Source of the DNA: an uncultured Flavobacteriales bacterium
GTDB taxonomy: Bacteria; Bacteroidota; Bacteroidia; Flavobacteriales; Schleiferiaceae
NCBI GenBank assembly: GCA_913055685.1
Contig: CAJXKC010000002.1
Location: 124,001-188,000, forward strand
DNA: 64,000 bases
Direction of reading: 5' to 3'
Part shown: piece by piece, positions 536 through 38,618 of the stretch
Numbering within the stretch: position 1 is the stretch's first letter
Layout of the letters: every line of letters starts with the position of its first letter
Notes under the pieces: generated by a model
The model's input: only the letters and a program-made list of their open reading frames with translations
The model's database searches: none
Told to the model about the DNA's origin: nothing
Made by a program: the position numbers and the translations under genes

Positions 536-865
536 GGGTAATCTTAAACTGTAAGGATTCGGATTTCGGAACCTCAAGGATTCCGCCGTCTCACTTATTT
601 CAAGAACTAAGGAAGACGAATCTTCCGTTATTGGGGCTGCAAATTTAATCAGAGAAAAATACTTGACAAGTCTTCCTGAAAAATATTTCTAGCTTTTTTA
701 AAACTCTCTGCAGATTAAGAAATCTGAAATTTTTTTTCCTTCCTGATTTCCTTTGTTTATAGGGCTTTTAAGGAATAATAAAGTGTTTGTTTAACATTTT
801 TACTATAAAGCTTAAACAAATTGATTTTAGGAGAGTTATATCCTCGAACTAAACAATTAAGTATT
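536..865. other. intergenic region upstream of proteorhodopsin
   Basis: A stretch of 330 bases without a gene, AT-rich towards the rhodopsin. It must hold the divergent promoters for the tRNA pair (minus) and the rhodopsin (plus). I see no full TAnnTTTG box; TTCCTTTG at 749-756 is one base off the consensus and is the best candidate. Any 5' leader of the rhodopsin transcript starting there would be about 100 bases long. Confidence 0.4.
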
Positions 866-1612
866 ATGAGTACACTATTAAATGTAATGGAGATTCCAAA
901 GGATGATCCAGTAGCTTTTACTTTTTTCACTGGCTACATGGCAATGATGGCGGCCTCGGTATTCTTCTTCTTTGAAAGAGGACGTGCAGAGGGCAAATGG
1001 AAACTATCCTTATTGGTTTCAGGGCTTATTACGGGTATCGCGGCAGTGCATTATTACTACATGCGAGACTATTATGTGGCAACTGGTGAAAACCCAACTG
1101 CCTTACGTTACATTGATTGGACTTTGACAGTTCCGTTAATGTGTGTGGAGTTCTATTTATTGACAAAGGCGGCTGGCGCCAAAACTAGTCTACTTTGGAA
1201 ATTGATTATTGCATCGGTTTGGATGCTTGTATTTGGATATATAGGAGAGGCATTTAATCCTGCAGGTGGTGATACCGGTCATTCTGTAATGTACGGTTTC
1301 TTATCTACTTTGGGATACATCTACATCTTGTATACCGCCTGGTTTGGTGAGGTAGCCAAATTATCCCAACACGATGCCAATGTCGCAAAAAGTGTGCGCA
1401 TCCTAGCTTGGTTTGTACTGGTAGGTTGGGCCATTTACCCAATTGGTTACATGTGTATGCCTGGCGGTTGGTTAAATACTGCTTTGGGTTGGAGTTCAGC
1501 CAACGTAGATTTATTCTACAATATCGCTGATGCCATCAACAAGATTGGTTTTGGTTTGGTAGTGTACAGTTTAGCTTTCTCGGGAGGAGATTCAAAAACC
1601 GCTCAAGCCTAA
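866..1612 (+). CDS. green-absorbing proteorhodopsin, light-driven proton pump
   Basis: A seven-helix retinal protein of the inner membrane that exports protons in light. With the start at 866 (248 aa) the helix C motif carries D84, T88 and E95, the equivalents of D97/T101/E108 of proteorhodopsin (DTE proton-pump type, not the NDQ sodium or NTQ chloride types). H62 matches the conserved H75, K226 in the last helix is the Schiff-base lysine, and M92 sits at the spectral tuning position (105 in the reference), which predicts green absorption. An upstream in-frame ATG at 821 would add 15 residues that do not look like rhodopsin, so the internal ATG was chosen. The gene is followed by a strong terminator and then the retinal-forming gene. 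Confidence 0.96.
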   Translation: MSTLLNVMEIPKDDPVAFTFFTGYMAMMAASVFFFFERGRAEGKWKLSLLVSGLITGIAAVHYYYMRDYYVATGENPTALRYIDWTLTVPLMCVEFYLLTKAAGAKTSLLWKLIIASVWMLVFGYIGEAFNPAGGDTGHSVMYGFLSTLGYIYILYTAWFGEVAKLSQHDANVAKSVRILAWFVLVGWAIYPIGYMCMPGGWLNTALGWSSANVDLFYNIADAINKIGFGLVVYSLAFSGGDSKTAQA

Positions 1613-1627
1613 GATTTTAGAATTTTG

Positions 1628-1653
1628 AAAGGCGTCTTCGGACGCCTTTTTTT
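1628..1653 (+). terminator. terminator between proteorhodopsin and blh
   Basis: A perfect nine-base-pair stem AAAGGCGTC/GACGCCTTT closes on a TTCG tetraloop and runs into seven T residues (1647-1653). It lies 15 bases after the rhodopsin stop codon. The T run touches the ATG of the next gene at 1654, so transcription through this hairpin would set blh expression unless blh has its own start. Confidence 0.9.
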
Positions 1654-2556
1654 ATGTCTCGAAGCAGTTTCATATTCATCGTAACGGCCTTTCTTACTTT
1701 ACCCTTGGCCGAAATTCACCACCCTTATTTCAGTGTGGTGGAGGCGGTTTTTTGCTTGGCCCTCATCGCTAGTTTTGGCATTGCCCATGGCGCTATCGAT
1801 AACCATTTATATGGCTTTAAAAATCTTGCTGGTAACCTTAAGTTCATAGGAGTTTACCTTCTAGTAGGAGCTGGCTTTGGTGCGCTGTGGTACTTTCAGG
1901 CTAGTATCGCGTTTACAGTCTTTATGATTATCTCTGCCTATCACTTTGGGCAGTCGCAGCTCGTTGAGGAGTTGAAATATGATTCCTGGTGGAATAGAGG
2001 GGTGTATACGCTTTGGGGCTTTTGGTTGCTTGCTTCTTTTCTCCACCTAAACCGCTTAGAATTATTCGAACTAAGCGCTCAGGATTTTGAAGTTCTTCCA
2101 GTTTTCCGATGGATGTTGGAGAATAGCTCAGTTTTATTTTATACCGGCAGCGGCAGCCTCTTTGCCTCACTTCTATACTCCCGATATAAAAGCTTATTGA
2201 CTTGGCAGTCGCTGTGGATAGAGTTTTATCAAATTGCCATTATTCTCGTAGTATTTTACTTCTCGTCTAGTTTATGGGGTTTTACCCTCTATTTTGTAAT
2301 CCTTCATTCCGGTAGGGTCCTGCAACAGGAATATCAATATTTATTGGATAGGCAGAAGGTTTCTAGGCTTTTTGATTTTGTGAAGCTGCTTAGTCCTTTC
2401 ACACTAGTATCCATATTTGGTTTAGCCTTCATTGTCGCTGGCTTTGCCTTTTTTCAAATAAATTATTCTTATTCCTTATTGGCATTGGTATTTATTTCAT
2501 GCTTAACCGTTCCCCATTCTTGGGTTATGGATCGCTTTTATCAAGAGCGTAATTAA
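1654..2556 (+). CDS. blh: Brp/Blh-type beta-carotene 15,15'-dioxygenase
   Basis: An integral membrane enzyme that cleaves beta-carotene into two retinal molecules, the chromophore of the rhodopsin encoded just upstream. The 300 aa length and multiple hydrophobic segments fit the Brp/Blh family. Histidines expected to bind the catalytic iron are visible: AHGAIDNH (H45, H51), AYHFGQ (H97), LHSGRV and VPHSW near the C-terminus. The ATG lies directly at the end of the T run of the 1628-1653 terminator, leaving no room for a ribosome site outside the hairpin. No carotenoid synthesis genes (crtE/B/I/Y) are in the window, so beta-carotene must be made elsewhere. Confidence 0.93.
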   Translation: MSRSSFIFIVTAFLTLPLAEIHHPYFSVVEAVFCLALIASFGIAHGAIDNHLYGFKNLAGNLKFIGVYLLVGAGFGALWYFQASIAFTVFMIISAYHFGQSQLVEELKYDSWWNRGVYTLWGFWLLASFLHLNRLELFELSAQDFEVLPVFRWMLENSSVLFYTGSGSLFASLLYSRYKSLLTWQSLWIEFYQIAIILVVFYFSSSLWGFTLYFVILHSGRVLQQEYQYLLDRQKVSRLFDFVKLLSPFTLVSIFGLAFIVAGFAFFQINYSYSLLALVFISCLTVPHSWVMDRFYQERN

Positions 2557-2585: not shown

Positions 2586-3149
2586 ATGTCCACTCGGCTT
2601 CACATCAAGAATATGGTTTGCCCCCGTTGTATCACGGCGGTGCAAAATCTTATGGACGAATTAAATCTAGAGGTAGAGCAGGTGAAGCTTGGCGAGGTCC
2701 TATTAAAAAATGGTCCTACTGCCGAAAGTAAAGAGCAGCTAAAACAAGGCTTAGAGCGCTTGGGTTTCGAATTATTAGATGATCAAAAATCGGCGCTCGT
2801 AAATCGCATCAAAGCGCTCATTATTAAAGAGATTCATCATAAGGATGAATTAAGCTCCAGCAACTTATCGGAGCTTATTGCTAAAGATTTAAAGCAGGAC
2901 TACGGCAGTTTGAGTCGCCTGTTTTCTTCGGTAGAAGGACATACCATCGAGCGTTTTACGGCGCTGCAGCGCATCGAAAAGATTAAAGAGTTCTTGGTTT
3001 ATGATCAGCTAAGCTTGGCCGAAATTGCGGACAAACTAGGCCTAAGTAGCGCTTCCTATGTGTCTAATTTCTTTAAGAAAGAAACGGGGATGACCCCGGG
3101 TCAGTTTAAAAAGGATCAGGCACCCCGAAAATCTATCGATCAGCTCTGA
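2586..3149 (+). CDS. HMA-like/AraC-type transcriptional regulator, probably copper-responsive
   Basis: A 187 aa protein with two parts. Residues 1-65 resemble a heavy-metal-associated (HMA) ferredoxin-like fold with a CPRC motif (C12, C15) in the metal-loop position. Residues about 100-180 are an AraC/XylS-type double helix-turn-helix, including LSLAEIADKLGLSS and the MTPGQFKK end typical of the family. It precedes a Cu(I)-exporting ATPase and a small HMA protein, so the HMA part likely senses or receives copper and the C-terminus controls the cluster. This is inference; the start at 2586 is supported by the promoter box just upstream. Confidence 0.82.
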   Translation: MSTRLHIKNMVCPRCITAVQNLMDELNLEVEQVKLGEVLLKNGPTAESKEQLKQGLERLGFELLDDQKSALVNRIKALIIKEIHHKDELSSSNLSELIAKDLKQDYGSLSRLFSSVEGHTIERFTALQRIEKIKEFLVYDQLSLAEIADKLGLSSASYVSNFFKKETGMTPGQFKKDQAPRKSIDQL

Positions 3150-3222
3150 AACTTACAATTCCTAAACAAAATTCTGTAAAAAGGGATTATGGGATTTGAA
3201 GACCTTTGTCTAAAATCCAAAA

Positions 3223-30800: not shown

Positions 30801-31453
30801 TAGGCACCTTGTTGTAAGTAGTTGGTGCGGTGATTGGTACGAGCGGTGAAGTTTTCGGGTTCACCGGGAGCGTATTTCTCTTCTAAATACTGAACAAATC
30901 CTAAGTCCAAGAGCTGATCCACGTTTTCAGGGTCGAAAACAATTTCAATTCTACGATCACTAGGAACTTCTTGGCGAATAAAGATTTCTTGCGCTTGTAA
31001 TTGTTGTACTATTTCTAAATGAGAAAGCCCTCGCCAATAGGTGATCCACATAATCATTGATTGGCCATCTTCAGCCCAAGCCCATTCAGGGTAATTATGC
31101 TGGAACATGTTCTCGGAAAGTAGCCAAGCATCGTTTATTTCGAGTACTTGTCCGCCTGCATTTTCCAGATTTTGCTTGGCTTGACTAAAATTGCCATTAC
31201 TTACTCTAGCAAAGGCAGCGTGCTTGGGTATATAATCCAAGGCCTCAAAACCATAGAAGTCTTTAACAACTTTTAAATCGGGGTGTTGGATTACCACATA
31301 ATGGTAATTTCCATAAGTCAGTGCTTCATTCTGGTGATGCTCATTAGCTCTCACCGTTTCATTTCCAAATAAGATTGGATCATTAATGCTCTGCGCCATT
31401 GAAGTGCTTGCAGAAAGCACCAAAGCGCTGAGAAAAAGGATAGTTTTTCGCAT
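27842..31453 (-). CDS. T9SS-exported subtilisin-like serine protease (S8)
   Basis: A 1203 aa secreted protease. A signal peptide ends near SMAQ (21). The S8 triad is D in AHNDAGG (about 233), H in GDHTAGT (about 260) and S in GTSMSCPG (about 431). A jelly-roll domain, an Fn3-like segment, a CARDB-like segment and one MAM-like module (ending SLDDFSIV) follow, then a type A T9SS sorting domain (MRVYPNPSAGRF ... MRLIKE). It probably degrades extracellular protein while bound to the surface. The MAM-like module matches module 2 of the giant protein at 20093. TATCTTTA on the minus strand at 31474-31481 is one base off a -7 box. Confidence 0.93.
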   Translation of the reverse strand: MRKTILFLSALVLSASTSMAQSINDPILFGNETVRANEHHQNEALTYGNYHYVVIQHPDLKVVKDFYGFEALDYIPKHAAFARVSNGNFSQAKQNLENAGGQVLEINDAWLLSENMFQHNYPEWAWAEDGQSMIMWITYWRGLSHLEIVQQLQAQEIFIRQEVPSDRRIEIVFDPENVDQLLDLGFVQYLEEKYAPGEPENFTARTNHRTNYLQQGAYNGGLNYDGSGIMVAHNDAGGITPHIDFKGRFSQSAGGAGSDHGDHTAGTISGAGNRDPYGVGMAPGADMFYREYPSNLNDADNIYVSMNARLTSNSFSNGCNQGYTTWSQQLDKDAFDNPLMLHVFSAGNNGSASCSNNYGAGIGWGNITGGHKQAKNVVTVGNVTRVDGLAPSSSRGPASDGRIKPDIVAVGTQVYSTTDANGPNTYNSKTGTSMSCPGVTGTLAVLMEAYKDLNNGNEAEGALLKGIIQNTADDLGNAGPDYRYGYGRLNAKRAFEVIEDGSYVMDSVGTGDSVTVNMTIPANTSQARFFIIWADPEASTAAARDLVNDLDLSVDYNNTTYLPWVLDPTPNAANLNSPAVRSRDSLNNMEQVTIDNPSAGTASIKVKGFNVPQGGDQRFYLIAFYEEDKLEITYPTPGMPVATGNAELIRFDAPHAAIHTAEISIDGGTTWSTAGTTFNNSARSITWSVPNYTNDQVYLRIRSSFDTAVVGPITIAPVPSNLTVVASCPDSVSLDWSDVSGVSGYIVYQLGAKYMDSVTYVTSSDAVIPHNPLNNDWYAVASVVNDTSAGFRSVAIEKTPGVFNCVVPNDLTLEAVLAPGNGDIATCAAGSNADRPSVLIRNTGSSSYSSVDVGFVRNGTTATVETVNRTINPGDTIIYHFNARLTLLNNVNLSYQFWISANPDNNPFNDTLNINTRYVNTNSSVLTVPHFEDFESFSICSDNADCGGTQCNLSQGWYNYQNFLSDDIDFRTHSGPTFSSGTGPNFDHNPGTSNGKYIYLESSGGCDSASAMVLTPCLDLSGAFRPYATIYYHMNGLNEMGRLAVDVYDGERWHLDIAPAVVGHQGAQWEPLSADLSAFTGKTINIRYRAKTGNGFRSDLSLDDFSIVDSSGVGLNENALANGMRVYPNPSAGRFTLESEIDLNKDTKIQIRDLSGQLVWTGNFVSNKGQKRMEIDLSNFADGVYLIEVQSDEQQASMRLIKE

Positions 31454-31623
31454 AGGGTATAAATCTAAAAGGGTAAAGATAAGCTTTGGGATTTAACTTG
31501 GTTTTATGATTTAATAGATACTTGGCCAGGCCCCGATAATTGAGGCTTATAGATTTGAACTTCTCGCTCCTTTTCCACGTATTACATTTATTGATAGCTT
31601 TGGCTTTCCAAAAAATACCGCGC

Positions 31624-34125
31624 ATGAAAAAGTTCTCCTTTAGTTTTCTGTCTTTAATAGTCTGCGGATCGATAATAGCTCAAGGAAATTCCTCTTCTGA
31701 ACTACTGCACCGCATAAAGCAATTAAAAAATCCAACTAGAGTACTTTATCTAGCGGCTCACCCCGACGACGAAAATACCCGCATGATTTCTTGGTTAGCT
31801 AATGATATAGGCGCCCAAACCGCTTATTTAAGTTTAACCAGGGGAGATGGTGGACAAAATTTGATTGGTACCGAATTAGGGGCACAACTCGGTGTGCTTC
31901 GTACCCAAGAGTTAATGCAGGCCCGAGCTATTGATGGTGGTCGTCAATACTTTAGTAGAGCGGTAGATTTTGGTTACAGTAAGAACCCGGAGGAAACCTT
32001 TAGCCAATGGGAGCGTGATGTAGTATTAAGCGATGTGGTGCGTGTTATTAGACAATTTCAACCACACATTATCATAACCCGGTTCCCGCCCGATGCTCGC
32101 GCGGGCCATGGTCATCATACTGCTAGCGCTATGCTAGCCTTAGAAGCTTTTAAATTGGCAGCCAAGGGTGATGCTTTTCCAGAGCAGAATTTAAAGCCCT
32201 GGCGTACCAAAAGAATTTTCTGGAATCACTCCTCTTGGTGGCAAAGAAACATTGATAGTTTGGCGGCAGCCGATCCTAGTTACTTTGTAGTAGACGTGGG
32301 AACCTACTTACCAGAATTAGGACTTTCTTGCAACGAAATGGCGAGTTACAGCCGTAGTCAGCATAAAAGCCAAGGTTTTGGAGTTGCGGTAGCGCGAGGC
32401 AGCAGCAAGGAATACTTGAAGTTGATGGATGGAGAAATGCCGGAGTCAGGTATTTTCGATAATATTCCCCAAAGTTGGGAAGAGGCAGGTAAGTCGAAAT
32501 GGGCAGCGGCGATTAACAAGATAGAAGAAGCTTTTGATCCGCATGCCCCTCATAAGATAGTGCCGCATATTATCGACGCTATTTACACCATTCGACCTCC
32601 GGCAGGCGGCGGCTATTGGCCTTATTCCTATTTAACAGATGAGCTGCGTCAATTGGCGGCCGATGCTTTGGGATTAAAGCTGGAGCTTTTAGCCGAGCAG
32701 GAATATGCCGTAGCCGGTCAGCCAATTAAATTTAAGGCTAGGGCCATACAACGCAGTCCCCTTAAGGTGAAGGTAAGTAGCTTGACTAATAATTGGGGAA
32801 AGCCTGAGGTAAGCTCCTACCACACAACGGATTTGGTTCCTAATGAACTGGTAGAAGAGGAAATCACCTTATACCTACCAAAGAATGCAGAATCTCAGCC
32901 CTATTGGTTAAGGGAGCCTTATGGTGCCATGTTCAAGGTAGCTAAGCCATCATTAATTGGCGATCCCGAAAATGCTCCAGCGTACCGCATTGGAGTATCG
33001 GTCGATATCGGCGATAAAGGATTTAGCATGGATGTTCCGGCTCGCTATAAGTTTTCAGACCGAGTGGAAGGGGAAATCGAAAGGCCTTTAATGATTGTTC
33101 CAGAGATTACGGTCCAATCGGCAGTAAGCAAACTGTTCTTTCTAAATGATGATGAAAAAGAAGTTAGCTTAGATTTTAGAGCTTTTAAGGCGGGGGAGTA
33201 TACTATCAATGTTTCAGCCGAAAATTGGAAAGTAGAGCCCAGTGAAATACGACTAAAGTTCAGTGAAAGCAACCAGTGGCAGAGCGTTAACTTAAAGGTT
33301 AAACCTGGTAAAGGGGCTGGAAGCAATAATCTTAAGATTGAACAAAGGATTGATTCTCAAAATATTCCGGGAGAGTCCTATCGCTTATATCCGGTTAAGA
33401 AGCTAGTGGAAATAGATTATTCCCATATCGATAAACGCATGATATTGGAGGAGCCCGATATCCGCTTAATTTCGCTTCCGCTGAAGCGTAAAGGGGATAA
33501 AGTAGCCTATGTAATGGGCGCTGGCGACAAGGTTGCAGAAGCTATTGCTCAAATGGGTTACGAAGTAGATTTATTGGATGAACAAAGCCTCAGAGAAGCG
33601 GATCTGAAACAATACCAGGCGGTTGTTATTGGTATTCGAGCCTATAATACGCAGGATTGGTTATTTAATCGCAAAGACCAATTGGAGGAATATATGCGAG
33701 CAGGGGGTAACGTAATCGTGCAATACAATACTCGCTCACGTTCTTTCCAAGGCAGTGACTTCTCACCTTATCCTTTTACGATTAGCCGACAACGGGTAAC
33801 CGAAGAAGATGCGGCGGTAAAGTTTTTACTGCCGAAGCATCCGGTACTTAATGAGCCCAATCCTATCAGTCAAGCTGACTTTGACGCTTGGGTTCAAGAA
33901 CGAGGTCTATACTTTGCCGATTCTTGGGATCCCGCTTTTGAGCGACCCTTGGCTTGGCATGATAAAGGAGAAAGTGATCTCGAGGGAGCTCTACTCATCG
34001 CCAAAGTGGGGAAAGGGAGTTTTATGTATACTGGAATATCATTCTTTAGGGAGCTTCCTGCCGGAGTAACAGGGGCCTACCGCTTATTAGCTAACTTGAT
34101 TTCATACGAGCATGGAGGAGAGTAA
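31624..34125 (+). CDS. exported PIG-L (LmbE-like) family deacetylase
   Basis: An 833 aa protein with a signal peptide ending near IIAQ (20). Residues 38-250 are the PIG-L/LmbE zinc deacetylase fold, with LAAHPDDE (H46, D48/D49) and the later HGHHTAS metal histidine. The large remainder holds beta-rich segments and, near residues 640-720, a glutamine-amidotransferase-like/ThuA-like part (VVIGIRAYNTQDWL). It should remove N-acetyl groups from a sugar or similar substrate in the periplasm or outside. The frame is open from 31540, but the signal peptide fixes the start at 31624. It overlaps the next small gene by 14 bases, linking it to a symporter. Confidence 0.85.
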   Translation: MKKFSFSFLSLIVCGSIIAQGNSSSELLHRIKQLKNPTRVLYLAAHPDDENTRMISWLANDIGAQTAYLSLTRGDGGQNLIGTELGAQLGVLRTQELMQARAIDGGRQYFSRAVDFGYSKNPEETFSQWERDVVLSDVVRVIRQFQPHIIITRFPPDARAGHGHHTASAMLALEAFKLAAKGDAFPEQNLKPWRTKRIFWNHSSWWQRNIDSLAAADPSYFVVDVGTYLPELGLSCNEMASYSRSQHKSQGFGVAVARGSSKEYLKLMDGEMPESGIFDNIPQSWEEAGKSKWAAAINKIEEAFDPHAPHKIVPHIIDAIYTIRPPAGGGYWPYSYLTDELRQLAADALGLKLELLAEQEYAVAGQPIKFKARAIQRSPLKVKVSSLTNNWGKPEVSSYHTTDLVPNELVEEEITLYLPKNAESQPYWLREPYGAMFKVAKPSLIGDPENAPAYRIGVSVDIGDKGFSMDVPARYKFSDRVEGEIERPLMIVPEITVQSAVSKLFFLNDDEKEVSLDFRAFKAGEYTINVSAENWKVEPSEIRLKFSESNQWQSVNLKVKPGKGAGSNNLKIEQRIDSQNIPGESYRLYPVKKLVEIDYSHIDKRMILEEPDIRLISLPLKRKGDKVAYVMGAGDKVAEAIAQMGYEVDLLDEQSLREADLKQYQAVVIGIRAYNTQDWLFNRKDQLEEYMRAGGNVIVQYNTRSRSFQGSDFSPYPFTISRQRVTEEDAAVKFLLPKHPVLNEPNPISQADFDAWVQERGLYFADSWDPAFERPLAWHDKGESDLEGALLIAKVGKGSFMYTGISFFRELPAGVTGAYRLLANLISYEHGGE

Positions 34126-34216
34126 GCACAAGTGGAGACAGCTGTACAGCATGGTATTATTCTTCCTTTTTTTGCAGATCATCTTTTATTATTTAGTCAC
34201 CGCCTTTTACGCCTAA
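34112..34216 (+). CDS. 34-residue single-helix membrane microprotein
   Basis: A 34 aa frame whose ATG lies inside the last codons of the deacetylase gene (14-base overlap) and whose TAA is directly followed by the ATG of the symporter. A charged, aromatic N-terminus (MEESKHKWRQLY) precedes one hydrophobic helix (residues 14-32). Its placement, with translation coupled on both sides and no wasted base, argues for a real gene. Small single-helix partners are known for some secondary transporters (for example MetS for the NSS transporter MetP); an accessory subunit of the SSS symporter is the likely role by inference. Confidence 0.72.
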   Translation: MEESKHKWRQLYSMVLFFLFLQIIFYYLVTAFYA

Positions 34217-35929
34217 ATGAACACCGTTGATTGGATAGTCCTTTTTGGAACCTTATTGGCCATTGTCGCTTACGGGGTTTGGCGTACACGCAATTCTAGC
34301 GATTTAAATGACTATTTGCGTGGGGGCAATGAAATGAAGTGGTTTACCATCGGCCTTTCAGTGATGGCCACCCAGGCTAGTGCAATTACATTTTTAAGTG
34401 CTCCAGGTTTAGGCTATGAATCGGGCTTGCGATTCGTCCAATTCTATTTTGGTCTACCCATAGCCCTCGTTATTATCGCGGCTTTTATAATCCCGATTTA
34501 TTACAAGCTTAAGGTTTACACGGCCTATGAGTATTTGGAAAAGCGTTTCGATTTAAAAACTCGACTTTTAGCCGCTTTTCTATTTCTAGTGCAGAGAGGT
34601 TTAGCCGCAGGACTCACCATTTTTGCTCCGGCTATTATCCTATCCACGATCTTAGGCTGGAACCTTCAATTCACTAATTTATTTGTGGGCATTCTGGTAA
34701 TTATCTACACCGTGAGTGGGGGCAGCAAAGCGGTTAGTATTACCCAAAAATTGCAAATGGGCATTATTCTGCTAGGCATGGCGCTGGCCTTTGGAATTTT
34801 ACTTTATCGAATCGGTGACTTCACTAATCTATCAACGGCCTTTAAGGTGGCCGGAAGTGCGGGACGCATGCAGATTCTCGATTTTAATTTCGACTTGAAT
34901 GAGCGCTATACGGTTTGGAGTGGCTTAACGGGAGGTCTGTTTTTAGCCTTATCCTATTTTGGTACCGATCAGAGTCAGGTTCAACGCTACCTCACGGGAA
35001 AAAATATTAAAGAAAGTCGCCTCGGACTAATGTTCAATGCGATGTTAAAGGTCCCCATGCAGCTCTTTATCTTGCTTACCGGGGTCTTGGTTTTTATTTT
35101 TTACCTCTACCAAAAACCACCGATGTTCTTTAATGAGGTGGCCTTGCAAAACTTAGAAAGCACGGAGTACCAAGAAGATTTAAAGGATATTGAGCGACGC
35201 TACAATGTAAATTACGAGGAATTACAAAAGAGTAGAGAGCAATTTGAACTAGCCTTGGAGGAAGGAGGTTTAAGAGCCGAAGCATTGAGTCGCGATGCAT
35301 TCTTAAATCGTTTAGCACAGGACCAAGAAATTAGGCAAGAGGTAAAGGATTTACTATTGGAAGCTAATCCTAATTTTAAGGTGAAGGACACCAATTACGT
35401 CTTCCTCACTTTTGTGATGGATTATCTACCTATTGGTGTAGTAGGTTTAATCATTGCGCTGATATTCTCTGCAGCGATGTCCAGCACTTCCAGTGAGCTC
35501 AATGCCTTGGCGACTACTACCTCGGTCGACTTTTACAACCGATTGTTTAAGCGGCAAGCGACGGACCGGGAGCAATTGATTATGTCTAAATTATTTACAG
35601 TATTCTGGGGAATATTGGCGATTTCCTTTGCTTTGGTGGCAAACCTCTTCGACAATTTAATTGAAATGGTAAATGTCCTGGGTTCCCTGTTCTATGGAAC
35701 TATTTTGGGGATATTTATCGTGGCCTTTTTTATAAAAACTATTAAAAAAGGAGTTTTCTGGGCGGCATTATTAGCCGAATCCATTGTACTCATAATCCAT
35801 TTTGCTCAGGTATACCAATGGCCCTATTTAGGAGAGCTAAATGTAGAGTACCTCTGGTATAATGTGATCGGTTGCGGTATGGTGGTGCTCTTTAGTTTTA
35901 CCTTAAATCTCCTTGCCAAGGATAAATAA
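34217..35929 (+). CDS. sodium:solute symporter (SSS family) with a charged internal insert
   Basis: A 570 aa inner-membrane symporter of the SSS family (LeuT fold), helped by sites such as QASAITFLSAPG near helix 2 and SAAMSSTSSELNALATTTS near helix 8. Residues about 301-393 are a hydrophilic, charged, helix-prone insert between two membrane segments; the shorter SSS protein at 11717-13165 lacks it. The gene starts on the base after the microprotein stop and is the last of a three-gene unit with the exported deacetylase, suggesting uptake of the deacetylation product. The substrate is unknown. Confidence 0.88.
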   Translation: MNTVDWIVLFGTLLAIVAYGVWRTRNSSDLNDYLRGGNEMKWFTIGLSVMATQASAITFLSAPGLGYESGLRFVQFYFGLPIALVIIAAFIIPIYYKLKVYTAYEYLEKRFDLKTRLLAAFLFLVQRGLAAGLTIFAPAIILSTILGWNLQFTNLFVGILVIIYTVSGGSKAVSITQKLQMGIILLGMALAFGILLYRIGDFTNLSTAFKVAGSAGRMQILDFNFDLNERYTVWSGLTGGLFLALSYFGTDQSQVQRYLTGKNIKESRLGLMFNAMLKVPMQLFILLTGVLVFIFYLYQKPPMFFNEVALQNLESTEYQEDLKDIERRYNVNYEELQKSREQFELALEEGGLRAEALSRDAFLNRLAQDQEIRQEVKDLLLEANPNFKVKDTNYVFLTFVMDYLPIGVVGLIIALIFSAAMSSTSSELNALATTTSVDFYNRLFKRQATDREQLIMSKLFTVFWGILAISFALVANLFDNLIEMVNVLGSLFYGTILGIFIVAFFIKTIKKGVFWAALLAESIVLIIHFAQVYQWPYLGELNVEYLWYNVIGCGMVVLFSFTLNLLAKDK

Positions 35930-35951
35930 AAAAAGCCCCGCAGGGCCTTTC
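35927..35951. terminator. bidirectional terminator between the symporter and a small lipoprotein
   Basis: A short GC-rich hairpin (GCCCC-GCAG-GGGC type, with flanking A and T runs) sits between two convergent genes. The long A run at 35926-35934 becomes a U run on the minus strand, so it serves the minus-strand lipoprotein best; the plus-strand T run (TTTCTT) is weaker. Confidence 0.75.
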
Positions 35952-36113
35952 TTAATTACTTTGTAAAATTTCATCATCAGTGGGAATATCGTTGCTGTGG
36001 TCGGTAACTCGTTCCGGTTCTGGACCATTATTTAAATAGTCCCGCTCTGCATCATCATTTGAGCAAGCGCTTAAAGCACCAATAAAAAGGGCCAAGATCA
36101 TTAGCTTTTTCAT
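35952..36113 (-). CDS. 53-residue lipoprotein, function unknown
   Basis: A 53 aa minus-strand frame with a classical lipoprotein signal: MKKLMILALF then a lipobox LSAC (cysteine 17). The mature part is short and acidic (SNDDAERDYL ... PTDDEILQSN). Signal peptide, lipobox and a terminator directly after its stop support it despite its size. I recognise no family. It stands alone between the convergent symporter and the TonB receptor terminator. Confidence 0.75.
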   Translation of the reverse strand: MKKLMILALFIGALSACSNDDAERDYLNNGPEPERVTDHSNDIPTDDEILQSN

Positions 36114-36201
36114 TTTATAGAATTTTAGTTTAGAGCTAATGTATTGACCTAAAGAGATTTGAACTTGTTAATACTTGTGCATCTCTCCTTAATAAAGCGT
36201 T

Positions 36202-36230
36202 AAAAAAAAATCCCGGCTGCTACCGGGATT
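36202..36230 (-). terminator. terminator after the TonB-dependent receptor
   Basis: The stem AATCCCGG/CCGGGATT with a six-base loop is followed on the minus strand by a nine-U run. It lies seven bases after the receptor stop codon at 36237. Confidence 0.9.
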
Positions 36231-36236
36231 CAAGTT

Positions 36237-38618
36237 TTAAAATTGAACGATAATACCTATTGAGGGGATACGCGTGCCATTACCATTTTCCAATAATTTG
36301 GTTGCATAACGTTGCTGCTCAATCGGGTCGCTTGGGTTTAGGATTACTGGATTACCATTCGAATCTCGGTCTAATGCCAATAGCGGCTCGCCGTCTACCG
36401 ATTGCCCTAGAAGGTTTTGCACATCGAGGTAGAGGTTAAGAGACCATTTTTCGAAGAACCATTTTTTATCGATTCGAATATTAACGCGATTGAAATTACT
36501 GAAGCGCTCTTGGTTTAAACGCGACCAGTCCGGAAGTCCCCGGCGGTTAACATTATAAACTTGTACTAATGAACTAGTGGCGATGTCGGTGGGGGTATAG
36601 GGAGCGCCGCCCAAGAATTGATATTGTAGGCCAATTTCCCAATTCTTGCCAAATTTCTTTCCTCCCGTAAGGGTAATTATATTCTGGTTATCCCAAGAAG
36701 AAGGAACCAAATTGCCTTGTGCATTTTCGAATTCAGATTTAACCAAAGTGTAAGCGAGGGTTCCAAACCAACCATCGTATAGCTTTTGCTGATATAAGAA
36801 TTCTAAACCATAGGCCCTTCCTGCCGAACTAGAAACAGCAGGCTCATTGCCTATTACCCCAAAGTCGCTCCCCAAATTTGCTAAAGTGATACCACGTTCG
36901 GTTAAGAAGGGGTAATCGGCATAGATTTTATAAAAGCCTTCTAAGCTAATCTTGGCATTAAAGGGCAGATAATACGCAAAGCCCGCAACTAGGTGCTGGG
37001 TGTTAATGTATTTCATGTTTTCATTAACCAAATTACCCAGGGTGTCTCTAAAGCCAAGGGTGGTAAAAGGTGGTAATTGGTTGTAAATAGAATAGGAGCT
37101 ATTGAAGCTTAATTCGGAGCTGATATTCCACGACAAGGCTAGTTTAGGCGATATCTGATTAAGCGGATTAGCAGTTTCTTCATTGAAGGTATTTCCGTCT
37201 AAACGCAAGCCTAGGTTTAGGTTTAAGCGTTCATCAAAGAAACTACGATTAGCATTAAAAAAGCCAAAGTATTGATAGAGCCGTAGATCGGTTTCGTAAT
37301 TTCTTGGCGCTGCTCCCGGAGCCACTCTTAGGTCTAACTCGCTGGTGATATATTTCACTTCCTCAAAACCAATCCCACTGGTAAGGCGCCAGCTACCTCT
37401 GCGTGCGAAGTTTTCTATCCTTAATTTATTTTCTATTTCTCGCGATAGGTAATCGAGTAATTGCAGTTTCGATTCATCATTGTCTTCGTATTTATAGGCG
37501 CTATTATTAAGCATAAAGCGACTAAGGATCACGTTGGTGTAAGATTTTTCACCAAAGTGCGTGTATTTGGCGCCAATGGAGTAATTCCACTGTTCATTAA
37601 CTGGTAAAAAGGCCAATTGGAACTGTTGCGTTTCCGTTTCATTGGCATCTAAATTCAGTTTAAACTGATCAATGGCCCCAAGCCCCAAGATGGTAAGTTG
37701 ATTCTTATCATCGAATTTGTGCTTTACCTTAAACTGGAAGTCATTGTAGGTAGGCAGGAAAGGGAGTTCTAGCACCGAGAATAAGAACTGTAAATAACTA
37801 CGACGGGCAGAAGCTAGAAAGGTGGTTTTTTCATTAATGGGGCCTTCTAGCGTAAGCCCAACTTCCGAAGCACCTACTTGAAATATACCACCAATGCGAT
37901 CCTTTCGACCATCTTTAAGCTTAATGTCTAAAACTGAACTTAGCGCATTGGCTTTTTCTACCGGAAAGGCAGAAGTATAAAGGTCTACCTCGCGGATAAA
38001 GTTAACATTAAGTAAACCTACTGGGCCGCCACTAGACCCTTGGGTGGCAAAGTGATTGATGCTCGGAATTTCAATACCATCTAAAAAGAAGCTATTCTCA
38101 TTGGGCGCTCCACCCCGAATGATAATGTCATTACGAAAGTTAGGGGTGGATGCAACGCCAGGTAGAGATTGAATAACCAAAGAGATATCTTGGTTTCCTC
38201 CAGGATTCCTTTGTATTTCATTAATCCCAAGGGTGCTTACCGACACCGGACTCTCCACCTTACGGGTGATGCGATCTTGAGCGGTTACCTTTACTTCTTG
38301 TAAGGTCTGACTACTCTCACTAAGGGCAAAATCTAATTCTCGCGGTCTAGAACGACTTACTTGAACCTCATATTCCGTTTTATTGGTATAGCCCACAAAG
38401 GAGGCGGTTACATTGTATAATCCTGGTTCTACCTCGAGGCTATAATTACCGTCTATATCAGTGGTGGTTCCATTGGTGGTTCCTTCGATAACCACATTAG
38501 CAAAGGGTAGGGGCTCATTGTTAATTTCATCATAGACCCTTCCGGTGATGACTCCCTTTTGGGCTAGGCCTTGAAAACCAATAACTAAGAAGCTGCAGAG
38601 TATTAGAAACTTTTTCAA
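36237..38618 (-). CDS. TonB-dependent outer-membrane receptor with carboxypeptidase-regulatory-like domain
   Basis: About 793 aa. The signal peptide (KKFLILCSFLVIGFQGLAQ) begins at a TTG codon at 38618. An upstream ATG at 38678 gives 20 more residues, but these would be read through the terminator hairpin of the preceding gene, so the TTG start is preferred. A CarboxypepD-regulatory-like domain (GVITGRVYDEINNEPLPFANV) is followed by the plug (SLPGVASTPNFRNDIIIRGG) and a beta-barrel ending in an aromatic residue (IGIIVQF). It imports an unknown large substrate powered by TonB. No SusD partner is adjacent, so it is not a typical polysaccharide locus. Confidence 0.9.
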   Translation of the reverse strand: MKKFLILCSFLVIGFQGLAQKGVITGRVYDEINNEPLPFANVVIEGTTNGTTTDIDGNYSLEVEPGLYNVTASFVGYTNKTEYEVQVSRSRPRELDFALSESSQTLQEVKVTAQDRITRKVESPVSVSTLGINEIQRNPGGNQDISLVIQSLPGVASTPNFRNDIIIRGGAPNENSFFLDGIEIPSINHFATQGSSGGPVGLLNVNFIREVDLYTSAFPVEKANALSSVLDIKLKDGRKDRIGGIFQVGASEVGLTLEGPINEKTTFLASARRSYLQFLFSVLELPFLPTYNDFQFKVKHKFDDKNQLTILGLGAIDQFKLNLDANETETQQFQLAFLPVNEQWNYSIGAKYTHFGEKSYTNVILSRFMLNNSAYKYEDNDESKLQLLDYLSREIENKLRIENFARRGSWRLTSGIGFEEVKYITSELDLRVAPGAAPRNYETDLRLYQYFGFFNANRSFFDERLNLNLGLRLDGNTFNEETANPLNQISPKLALSWNISSELSFNSSYSIYNQLPPFTTLGFRDTLGNLVNENMKYINTQHLVAGFAYYLPFNAKISLEGFYKIYADYPFLTERGITLANLGSDFGVIGNEPAVSSSAGRAYGLEFLYQQKLYDGWFGTLAYTLVKSEFENAQGNLVPSSWDNQNIITLTGGKKFGKNWEIGLQYQFLGGAPYTPTDIATSSLVQVYNVNRRGLPDWSRLNQERFSNFNRVNIRIDKKWFFEKWSLNLYLDVQNLLGQSVDGEPLLALDRDSNGNPVILNPSDPIEQQRYATKLLENGNGTRIPSIGIIVQF

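Follow-up and report, generated by a model that had tools for sequence, protein, structure and literature searches.

Between a PIG-L family deacetylase gene and a sodium:solute symporter (SSS) gene of an uncultured Flavobacteriales bacterium lies a reading frame of 34 codons, which raises the questions of whether this frame is a gene and which of the two neighbours its product would serve. The frame occupies positions 34112–34216 on the plus strand of the window, the term used here for the whole stretch of 64,000 nucleotides analysed. It starts with ATG at 34112, ends with TAA at 34214–34216 and is translated into MEESKHKWRQLYSMVLFFLFLQIIFYYLVTAFYA. The original prediction described it as an unlisted membrane microprotein frame that begins within the last codons of the deacetylase gene and stops at the start codon of the symporter gene, and both junctions are found as described. 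The frame overlaps the 3' end of the PIG-L gene by 14 nt (34112–34125; PIG-L stop codon at 34123–34125), and its TAA abuts the symporter ATG at 34217 (junction 34214–34219), the two frames being in the same phase. In relatives, this second junction is often an ATGA or TAATG overlap. The hydropathy profile of the peptide contains a single strongly hydrophobic stretch, with a 17-residue Kyte-Doolittle maximum of 2.29, and its charges lie at the N-terminal end, in agreement with the charged tip and one membrane helix that had been predicted. The window contains 43 ORFs that start with ATG and reach at least 150 aa; among them, a TM-like, ATG-started frame of 28–50 aa ending from −25 to +10 nt relative to the ORF start is found only for this peptide-SSS pair (1/43). 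The second SSS gene of the window (13165–11717, minus strand) is without a TM-like small frame upstream, as had also been stated. The observation of a 34-residue membrane microprotein frame is therefore confirmed. No RNA family is matched at the Rfam gathering score within 31300–36300, promoter- and terminator-like sites at the locus are no more frequent than in shuffled sequences, and the peptide of the window has no match among phage families and no plasmid copy.

The frame is flanked by two recognizable genes, with which it forms a three-gene unit. The upstream member (31624–34125, plus strand) encodes a secreted-looking PIG-L family deacetylase of 833 aa, counted from the ATG at 31624. It matches Pfam PIG-L (PF02585) with an E value of 1.1e-15 and a score of 58.7 bits against a cut-off of 28.2, and contains AHPDDE, presumably the motif expected of PIG-L deacetylases. 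Its N-terminus, MKKFSFSFLSLIVCGSIIAQ, reads by eye like a signal peptide. The downstream member (34217–35929, plus strand) encodes an SSS/SSF sodium:solute symporter of 570 aa, the proposed partner of the peptide, which passes the curated cut-offs for this family (PF00474, 1.8e-43; TIGR00813, 252 bits against a cut-off of 184). Its nearest solved chain is 5nv9 (E value of 2e-46, with an alignment that spans most of its length), listed as a putative sodium:solute symporter, which we take to be the sialic acid symporter SiaT. 5nv9 is the closest solved homologue, but lacks a charged insert of about 80–90 residues (approximately residues 303–393, positions 35123–35395) that is present in the symporter of the window. 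This insert is absent or shorter in five other SSS genes examined in the same genome, and the symporter of an f98 homologue (L323) has an insert of similar length. Hydropathy and the alignment with 5nv9 suggest that the symporter has 13 helices and ends after TM12, without TM13.

The conservation of the frame was analysed at the codon level. Because synonymous sites are near saturation, pN/pS rather than dN/dS is reported. The in-frame pN/pS values in six genera are 0.16, 0.33, 0.25, 0.11, 0.47 and 0.28, and those of the shifted frames in the same genera are 0.59–2.35. The separation is smallest in genus g14, with 0.47 in frame against 0.59 in one shifted frame. Among 36 sequences, none contains a stop codon in the peptide frame, while 34 and 17 of them do in the two shifted frames. 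Judged by these ratios and stop counts, the frame is under purifying selection at the protein level and is a real gene, and this selection rules out a chance open frame. Absence of the frame, the helix or the spacing upstream of orthologous symporters had been named as an outcome that would speak against the original prediction. All three recur there in the genomes sampled, and the observation is therefore regarded as settled.

The anatomy of the peptide was examined with a set of 153 peptides (Neff of 117), from which L151, L152 and L155 were removed and to which L312 and L318 were not added; start codons were assigned by rule. They share the motif W-x3-Y-x2-V-x3-L-x3-I-x2-F-x3-T-x2-Y/F. The conservation values are inflated, because the peptides were selected by profile: 97% for W8, 96% for Y12 (otherwise H), 77% for V15 (otherwise mostly L), 68% for L19, 77% for I23, 73% for F26 (Y in 17%), 69% for T30 (S in 18%) and 91% for F and Y together at position 33. 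The conserved residues recur every three to four positions, the periodicity across residues 9–31 peaking at 101 degrees per residue (permutation p=0.001), and therefore form a stripe along one side of the helix. The mean number of K and R is 2.75 before the helix and 0.44 after it, the N-terminal side being the richer in 145 of the 153 peptides. According to the positive-inside rule, a flank rich in K and R stays in the cytoplasm, so that this bias predicts an N-in/C-out topology. The gene call thus combines the open frame, conservation by profile, purifying selection, and the motif with its charge bias.

In the family to which the organism belongs, the symporter was searched for in 88 genomes, 73 of which match at E≤1e-100, and the upstream DNA was inspected at 70 of these 73 loci (G006, G068 and G070 being left out). 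By reading, 45 of the 70 loci carry a one-helix frame of approximately 30–49 aa with the same motif, whose end lies only a few bases from the start of the symporter gene. The remaining 25 loci belong to genus g16 (19), genera g15 and g17 (three together) and genus g6 (three). Genus g16, with genomes of 1.3–1.8 Mb, retains PIG-L and SSS without the peptide at all 19 loci examined, and at several of them PIG-L nearly abuts SSS with no peptide between. At the three g15/g17 loci, PIG-L is not matched upstream. No such frame is seen in seven inspected f24 genomes either. Its absence from g16 and from these f24 genomes shows that the peptide is dispensable in some settings and not universally required.

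In the order, profiles of the peptide match 100 of 296 genomes, in the class 132 of 295 (both at E≤0.01) and in the phylum 99 of 296 (E≤0.001); of these 99, 35 lie outside the class. Some of the class and phylum genomes searched had supplied rows of the profiles, but the 35 outside the class had not. Because short profiles yield chance matches, genomic position was used as the judge. At 40 chosen places in the order, an orthologous SSS gene lies directly downstream in 31, only PIG-L adjoins in two (L117, at a contig end, and L118), and neither is present in seven; the order matches L142 and L151–L156, with no SSS or PIG-L nearby, are rejected as chance. In the class, where counts rest on the best matches listed, 114 of the 138 matches are followed immediately by an SSS match in the same orientation, and 77 of these 114 are spaced as expected for ATGA and TAATG overlaps (38 and 39, among the matches listed), the distance being taken from where the profile match ends; the junction sequences were inspected separately. 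Outside the class, SSS lies directly downstream at 17 of 20 places (19 genomes). At L316 the SSS start is visible and the frame is then lost, and at L318 and L329 there is no SSS match. Similar peptides that are unscored or score more weakly precede SSS in genomes missed by the profile, for example at L225, L229, L231, L233, L234, L243 and L246–L248. Homologues of the peptide, as recognized by profile and position, thus occur widely in the Bacteroidota sampled.

The peptide is not a recognizable member of a known family. When 51 members were compared with Pfam at E≤0.03, 11 families are matched by one or two members each (best E value of 0.0012), and when 37 members were compared with NCBIfam at E≤10, nine families are matched (best E value of 0.0015, in one member); none of them fits. 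This best NCBIfam match, to KdpF in 1 of 37 members, is read as shared one-helix composition. The peptide of the window itself reaches no Pfam or NCBIfam cut-off. No related PDB chain is found with the peptide profile, the best match being a Sec61 chain with an E value of 2.2. Small proteins of microbes have been catalogued globally (PMC11364881), and that catalogue may contain the sequence. Two-helix proteins of DUF4212 (PF13937) and DUF485 (PF04341) accompany other SSS genes, and in the same genome the gene of a DUF4212 protein (PF13937, 1.3e-34) ends 18 nt ahead of an SSS gene other than the present one. Like the peptide, DUF4212 proteins are small membrane proteins whose gene immediately precedes that of an SSS transporter, but they have about 86 aa and two helices, whereas the peptide has 34 aa and one hydrophobic stretch. 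Thus, the peptide shares with DUF4212 the position upstream of SSS, but neither the profile nor the two-helix architecture of 80–90 aa. An origin from DUF4212 or DUF485 is rejected as well, with an hhalign probability of 0.5 (percent) against DUF4212 and neither family among those matched by the 51 members.

The position of the peptide between two genes allows for the explanation that it works with PIG-L as a partner or tethers it to the membrane, or that it holds the deacetylase and the symporter in one complex. To weigh the two neighbours, PIG-L was searched for in the same sample at 131 class matches (E≤0.005; 7 of the 138 lie above this threshold and were omitted). Among the matches listed, 90 have PIG-L, peptide and SSS, 24 have peptide and SSS, eight have peptide and PIG-L, and nine have neither. 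Inspection of the upstream DNA of all 24 peptide-SSS cases reveals a PIG-L end cut by the contig in three (G562, G508 and G506), which brings the triads to 93 of 131 among the matches listed, a number that favours a link with the deacetylase. However, the other 21, which come from 13 families, have SSS beside the peptide but no PIG-L match in 2.4–3.3 kb upstream. Four of the eight peptide-PIG-L cases (G609, G549, G403 and G550) are contig ends at which the SSS start is visible, and in G412 the contig ends at the peptide. The three others (G527, G438 and G533) are real cases in which the peptide follows PIG-L and SSS is matched elsewhere, and they favour the deacetylase, as does G010 of the family of the organism, with the same arrangement. 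Of the nine places with neither gene, all were dropped as chance matches except G447, which adjoins a C-terminal fragment of PIG-L and in which the peptide probably stays with PIG-L, SSS being matched elsewhere. The convincing reverse cases in the class therefore number three to four, from two families (f48 and f60). In G527 and G438, moreover, an ATG after the peptide stop soon meets a stop codon, as if it were a leftover start codon from which SSS had moved away, which weakens these cases for the deacetylase. Two further observations count against PIG-L as the partner. In 8 of the 90 listed triads, 0.4–1.8 kb separates the PIG-L end from the peptide, and the peptide-SSS junction stays close nevertheless (two other large gaps, which reflect partial PIG-L matches, are excluded from the eight). 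At seven loci outside the class (L317 and six of f98: L323, L325–L328 and L330), the peptide precedes SSS with no long PIG-L match in the stretch examined; at L323, a short PIG-L gene lies in the opposite orientation. These counts thus show that the linkage follows the symporter more closely than it follows the deacetylase, if imperfectly, because 21 SSS-only cases from 13 families stand against three to four reverse cases from two families. The symporter is the more likely partner, and a function of the peptide with PIG-L is considered improbable.

Even if the symporter is the partner, the peptide may act on it otherwise than as a subunit. It may be a transient regulatory or turnover peptide (an inhibitor, protease adaptor or protector, like MgtR or MgtS) rather than a stoichiometric subunit. 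Regulators of this type, as described in the available text of a review (PMC10710835), resemble it in size and in having a single helix, and its absence from some clades would also suit such a role, but the gene is usually fixed beside SSS, with frames that overlap or nearly do so, an arrangement that suits constant stoichiometry, and a regulator of this kind is regarded as quite improbable. The ATGA- and TAATG-fitting spacings at most of the listed adjacent matches would also be expected of a leader frame whose sole role is to deliver ribosomes to the symporter start. However, such a coupler does not need amino-acid conservation, yet W8 and Y12 are nearly invariant and pN/pS is low, and PIG-L and SSS lie almost end to end at the peptide-less g16 loci noted above; this explanation is very improbable. 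The least credible one is that the frame arose by chance or is a degenerate remnant of a DUF4212/DUF485 small subunit. The position and a W in the N-terminal region are common to the peptide and DUF4212 proteins, but the purifying selection, the single helix instead of two, and the lack of any profile relationship argue against it.

The peptide is therefore probably, as its conservation and gene order suggest, a one-helix accessory subunit of SSS symporters from a subfamily that is widespread in Bacteroidota, and it would associate physically with the symporter. The same ribosomes would make the peptide just before the symporter, by termination and reinitiation at the ATGA, TAATG or TAAATG junction. 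The peptide would then insert with its K/R-rich N-terminal tail in the cytoplasm and its C-terminal end in the periplasm, and the stripe of W8, Y12, V15, L19, I23, F26, T30 and Y33 would pack on helices of the symporter. By analogy with what has been proposed for MAP17 on SGLT2, it may serve as a fixed scaffold that stabilizes or tunes the symporter through its folding, stability or gating. An AlphaFold2 model of a read-through fusion of peptide, Gly and symporter, built from 14 rows, has a mean pLDDT of 52.7 and a pTM of 0.41, values too low for a docking site to be proposed from it. Covariation between peptide and SSS (133 pairs, Neff of 89, grouped alphabet, APC-corrected MI) gives scattered top pairs in which clade signal is dominant; peptide positions 19 and 22 prevail among them, and one clade has N and Y there. 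It is conceivable that the secreted-looking PIG-L prepares the transported compound, perhaps amino-sugar-like, in the periplasm. Amino-sugar-like solutes are a weak lead as the substrate, hinted at because PIG-L adjoins, because 5nv9 is the nearest structure, and because in one f98 genome a NagB-like gene and a short PIG-L gene are divergent from the peptide-SSS pair.

The kind of partner proposed here has precedents. MetS, with MetP in Corynebacterium, and KdpF are tiny one-helix transporter partners, and the human SGLT1 and SGLT2 (SLC5) are in the same superfamily as the SSS transporters. AcrZ and MgtS are likewise tiny one-helix proteins paired with transporters, according to the available text of PMC10710835. 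All four small proteins have one helix like the peptide, but their transporters belong to different families. The MetS/MetP precedent of the original prediction thus holds for a tiny one-helix partner, but MAP17 (PDZK1IP1) with SGLT1 and SGLT2 is a closer one (PMC10803289, PMC9616851). The available text of PMC10803289 states that SGLT2 requires MAP17 for transport, and that the single MAP17 helix contacts TM13 as part of a fixed scaffold, the role proposed here for the peptide. Its authors favour a role in folding, stability and localisation over activity itself, and how MAP17 acts on human SGLT2 is a matter of continuing debate (PMC10803289); SGLT1 likewise binds MAP17 (PMC9616851). Both MAP17 and the peptide are single helices paired with an SSS-type Na+ symporter, the peptide by gene adjacency only. 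MAP17 is, however, a separate animal gene, whereas the peptide is encoded beside its symporter, and MAP17 docks on TM13 of the SGLTs (PMC10803289 and PMC9616851, available text), whereas the symporter here seems to end after TM12. The best reading is that the peptide would work like MAP17 without being a member of the MAP17 family. A literature search of open-licence papers, directed at bacterial SSS proteins and any small or single-helix partners they may have, names no one-helix partner, and the available text on an acetate transporter of the SSF family from an archaeon (PMC7746861) makes no mention of small transporter subunits. Because no Pfam or NCBIfam family fits, DUF4212 is unrelated by profile and this search names no one-helix partner, the peptide is hence placed in a new family of a known kind, as a one-helix bacterial variant of the small SSS accessory proteins. 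The original proposal of an undescribed small SSS subunit stands in that, across the genomes sampled, sequence, topology and position of the peptide are all conserved and it tracks SSS over PIG-L, but small partners of SSS proteins as such are already known.

A bolder version, held only tentatively and rather doubtful, is that this family is the first single-helix subunit of a bacterial SSS protein, a detached in-to-out helix that provides what TM13, the last helix, or MAP17 provides in SGLT-type relatives, and that the two-part form is ancestral in this subfamily, a few clades having given it up later. The C-termini of symporters that have the peptide and of those that lack it lie at similar positions, and no extra C-terminal helix is found in 20 tails of SSS proteins lacking the peptide (from a set of 20 newly retrieved 3' ends and L226; none of the tails is from L360). 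On these tails, the idea that loss of the peptide is offset by such a helix is rejected, and a literal substitution for TM13 is counted against because peptide-less symporters have no added C-terminal helix.

A conserved gene can stay without a family name when it has merely 30–49 codons. The SSS/SLC5 transporters are medically important, and a bacterial symporter encoded side by side with a one-helix partner, both easily expressed, would, if the reading as a subunit is true, be a simple system for the role of such a helix. In that case, symporters of this subfamily should be cloned and assayed together with their peptide partner.

In two loci that contain the peptide without an adjoining symporter (L216 and L217), the TAA stop codon of the peptide is followed by an ATG, and then by a stop codon either at once or one codon on (around position 3130-3150). 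This ATG looks like the remnant start of the symporter, which appears to be relocated elsewhere in both genomes. At L316 (2759-3193), a symporter start (MSIVDWVVFGITLASIIGYGMWRG) lies immediately 3' of the peptide, and the frame is then lost, probably because the gene has decayed or because the assembly contains an error. In genome G847, an identical peptide is located close to each end of the same contig (C1:21448 and C1:3845703; L321 and L322), with broken PIG-L matches at both copies and a broken SSS match at one of the two. This duplication is perhaps a contig-end overlap left unmerged.

The window symporter contains a charged insert of ~80-90 residues (residues ~303-393; window 35123-35395) preceding the 'KDTNYVFLTFVMDYLP' segment. 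This insert is missing from 5nv9, the nearest solved homologue, and is absent or shorter in all five other SSS genes examined in the same genome. From the usual SSS topology, the insert would face the periplasm. The same genome also exemplifies a known kind of SSS companion, a two-helix DUF4212 protein of 86 aa (L334; G000:C1:1329536-1329760), which ends 18 nt 5' of another SSS gene.

At L323, an f98 locus outside the class, the peptide and SSS genes have two divergent neighbours (802-2476, minus strand), of which one encodes a glucosamine-6-phosphate deaminase resembling NagB and the other a short PIG-L protein. These neighbours hint that the substrate of the symporter may be an amino sugar.
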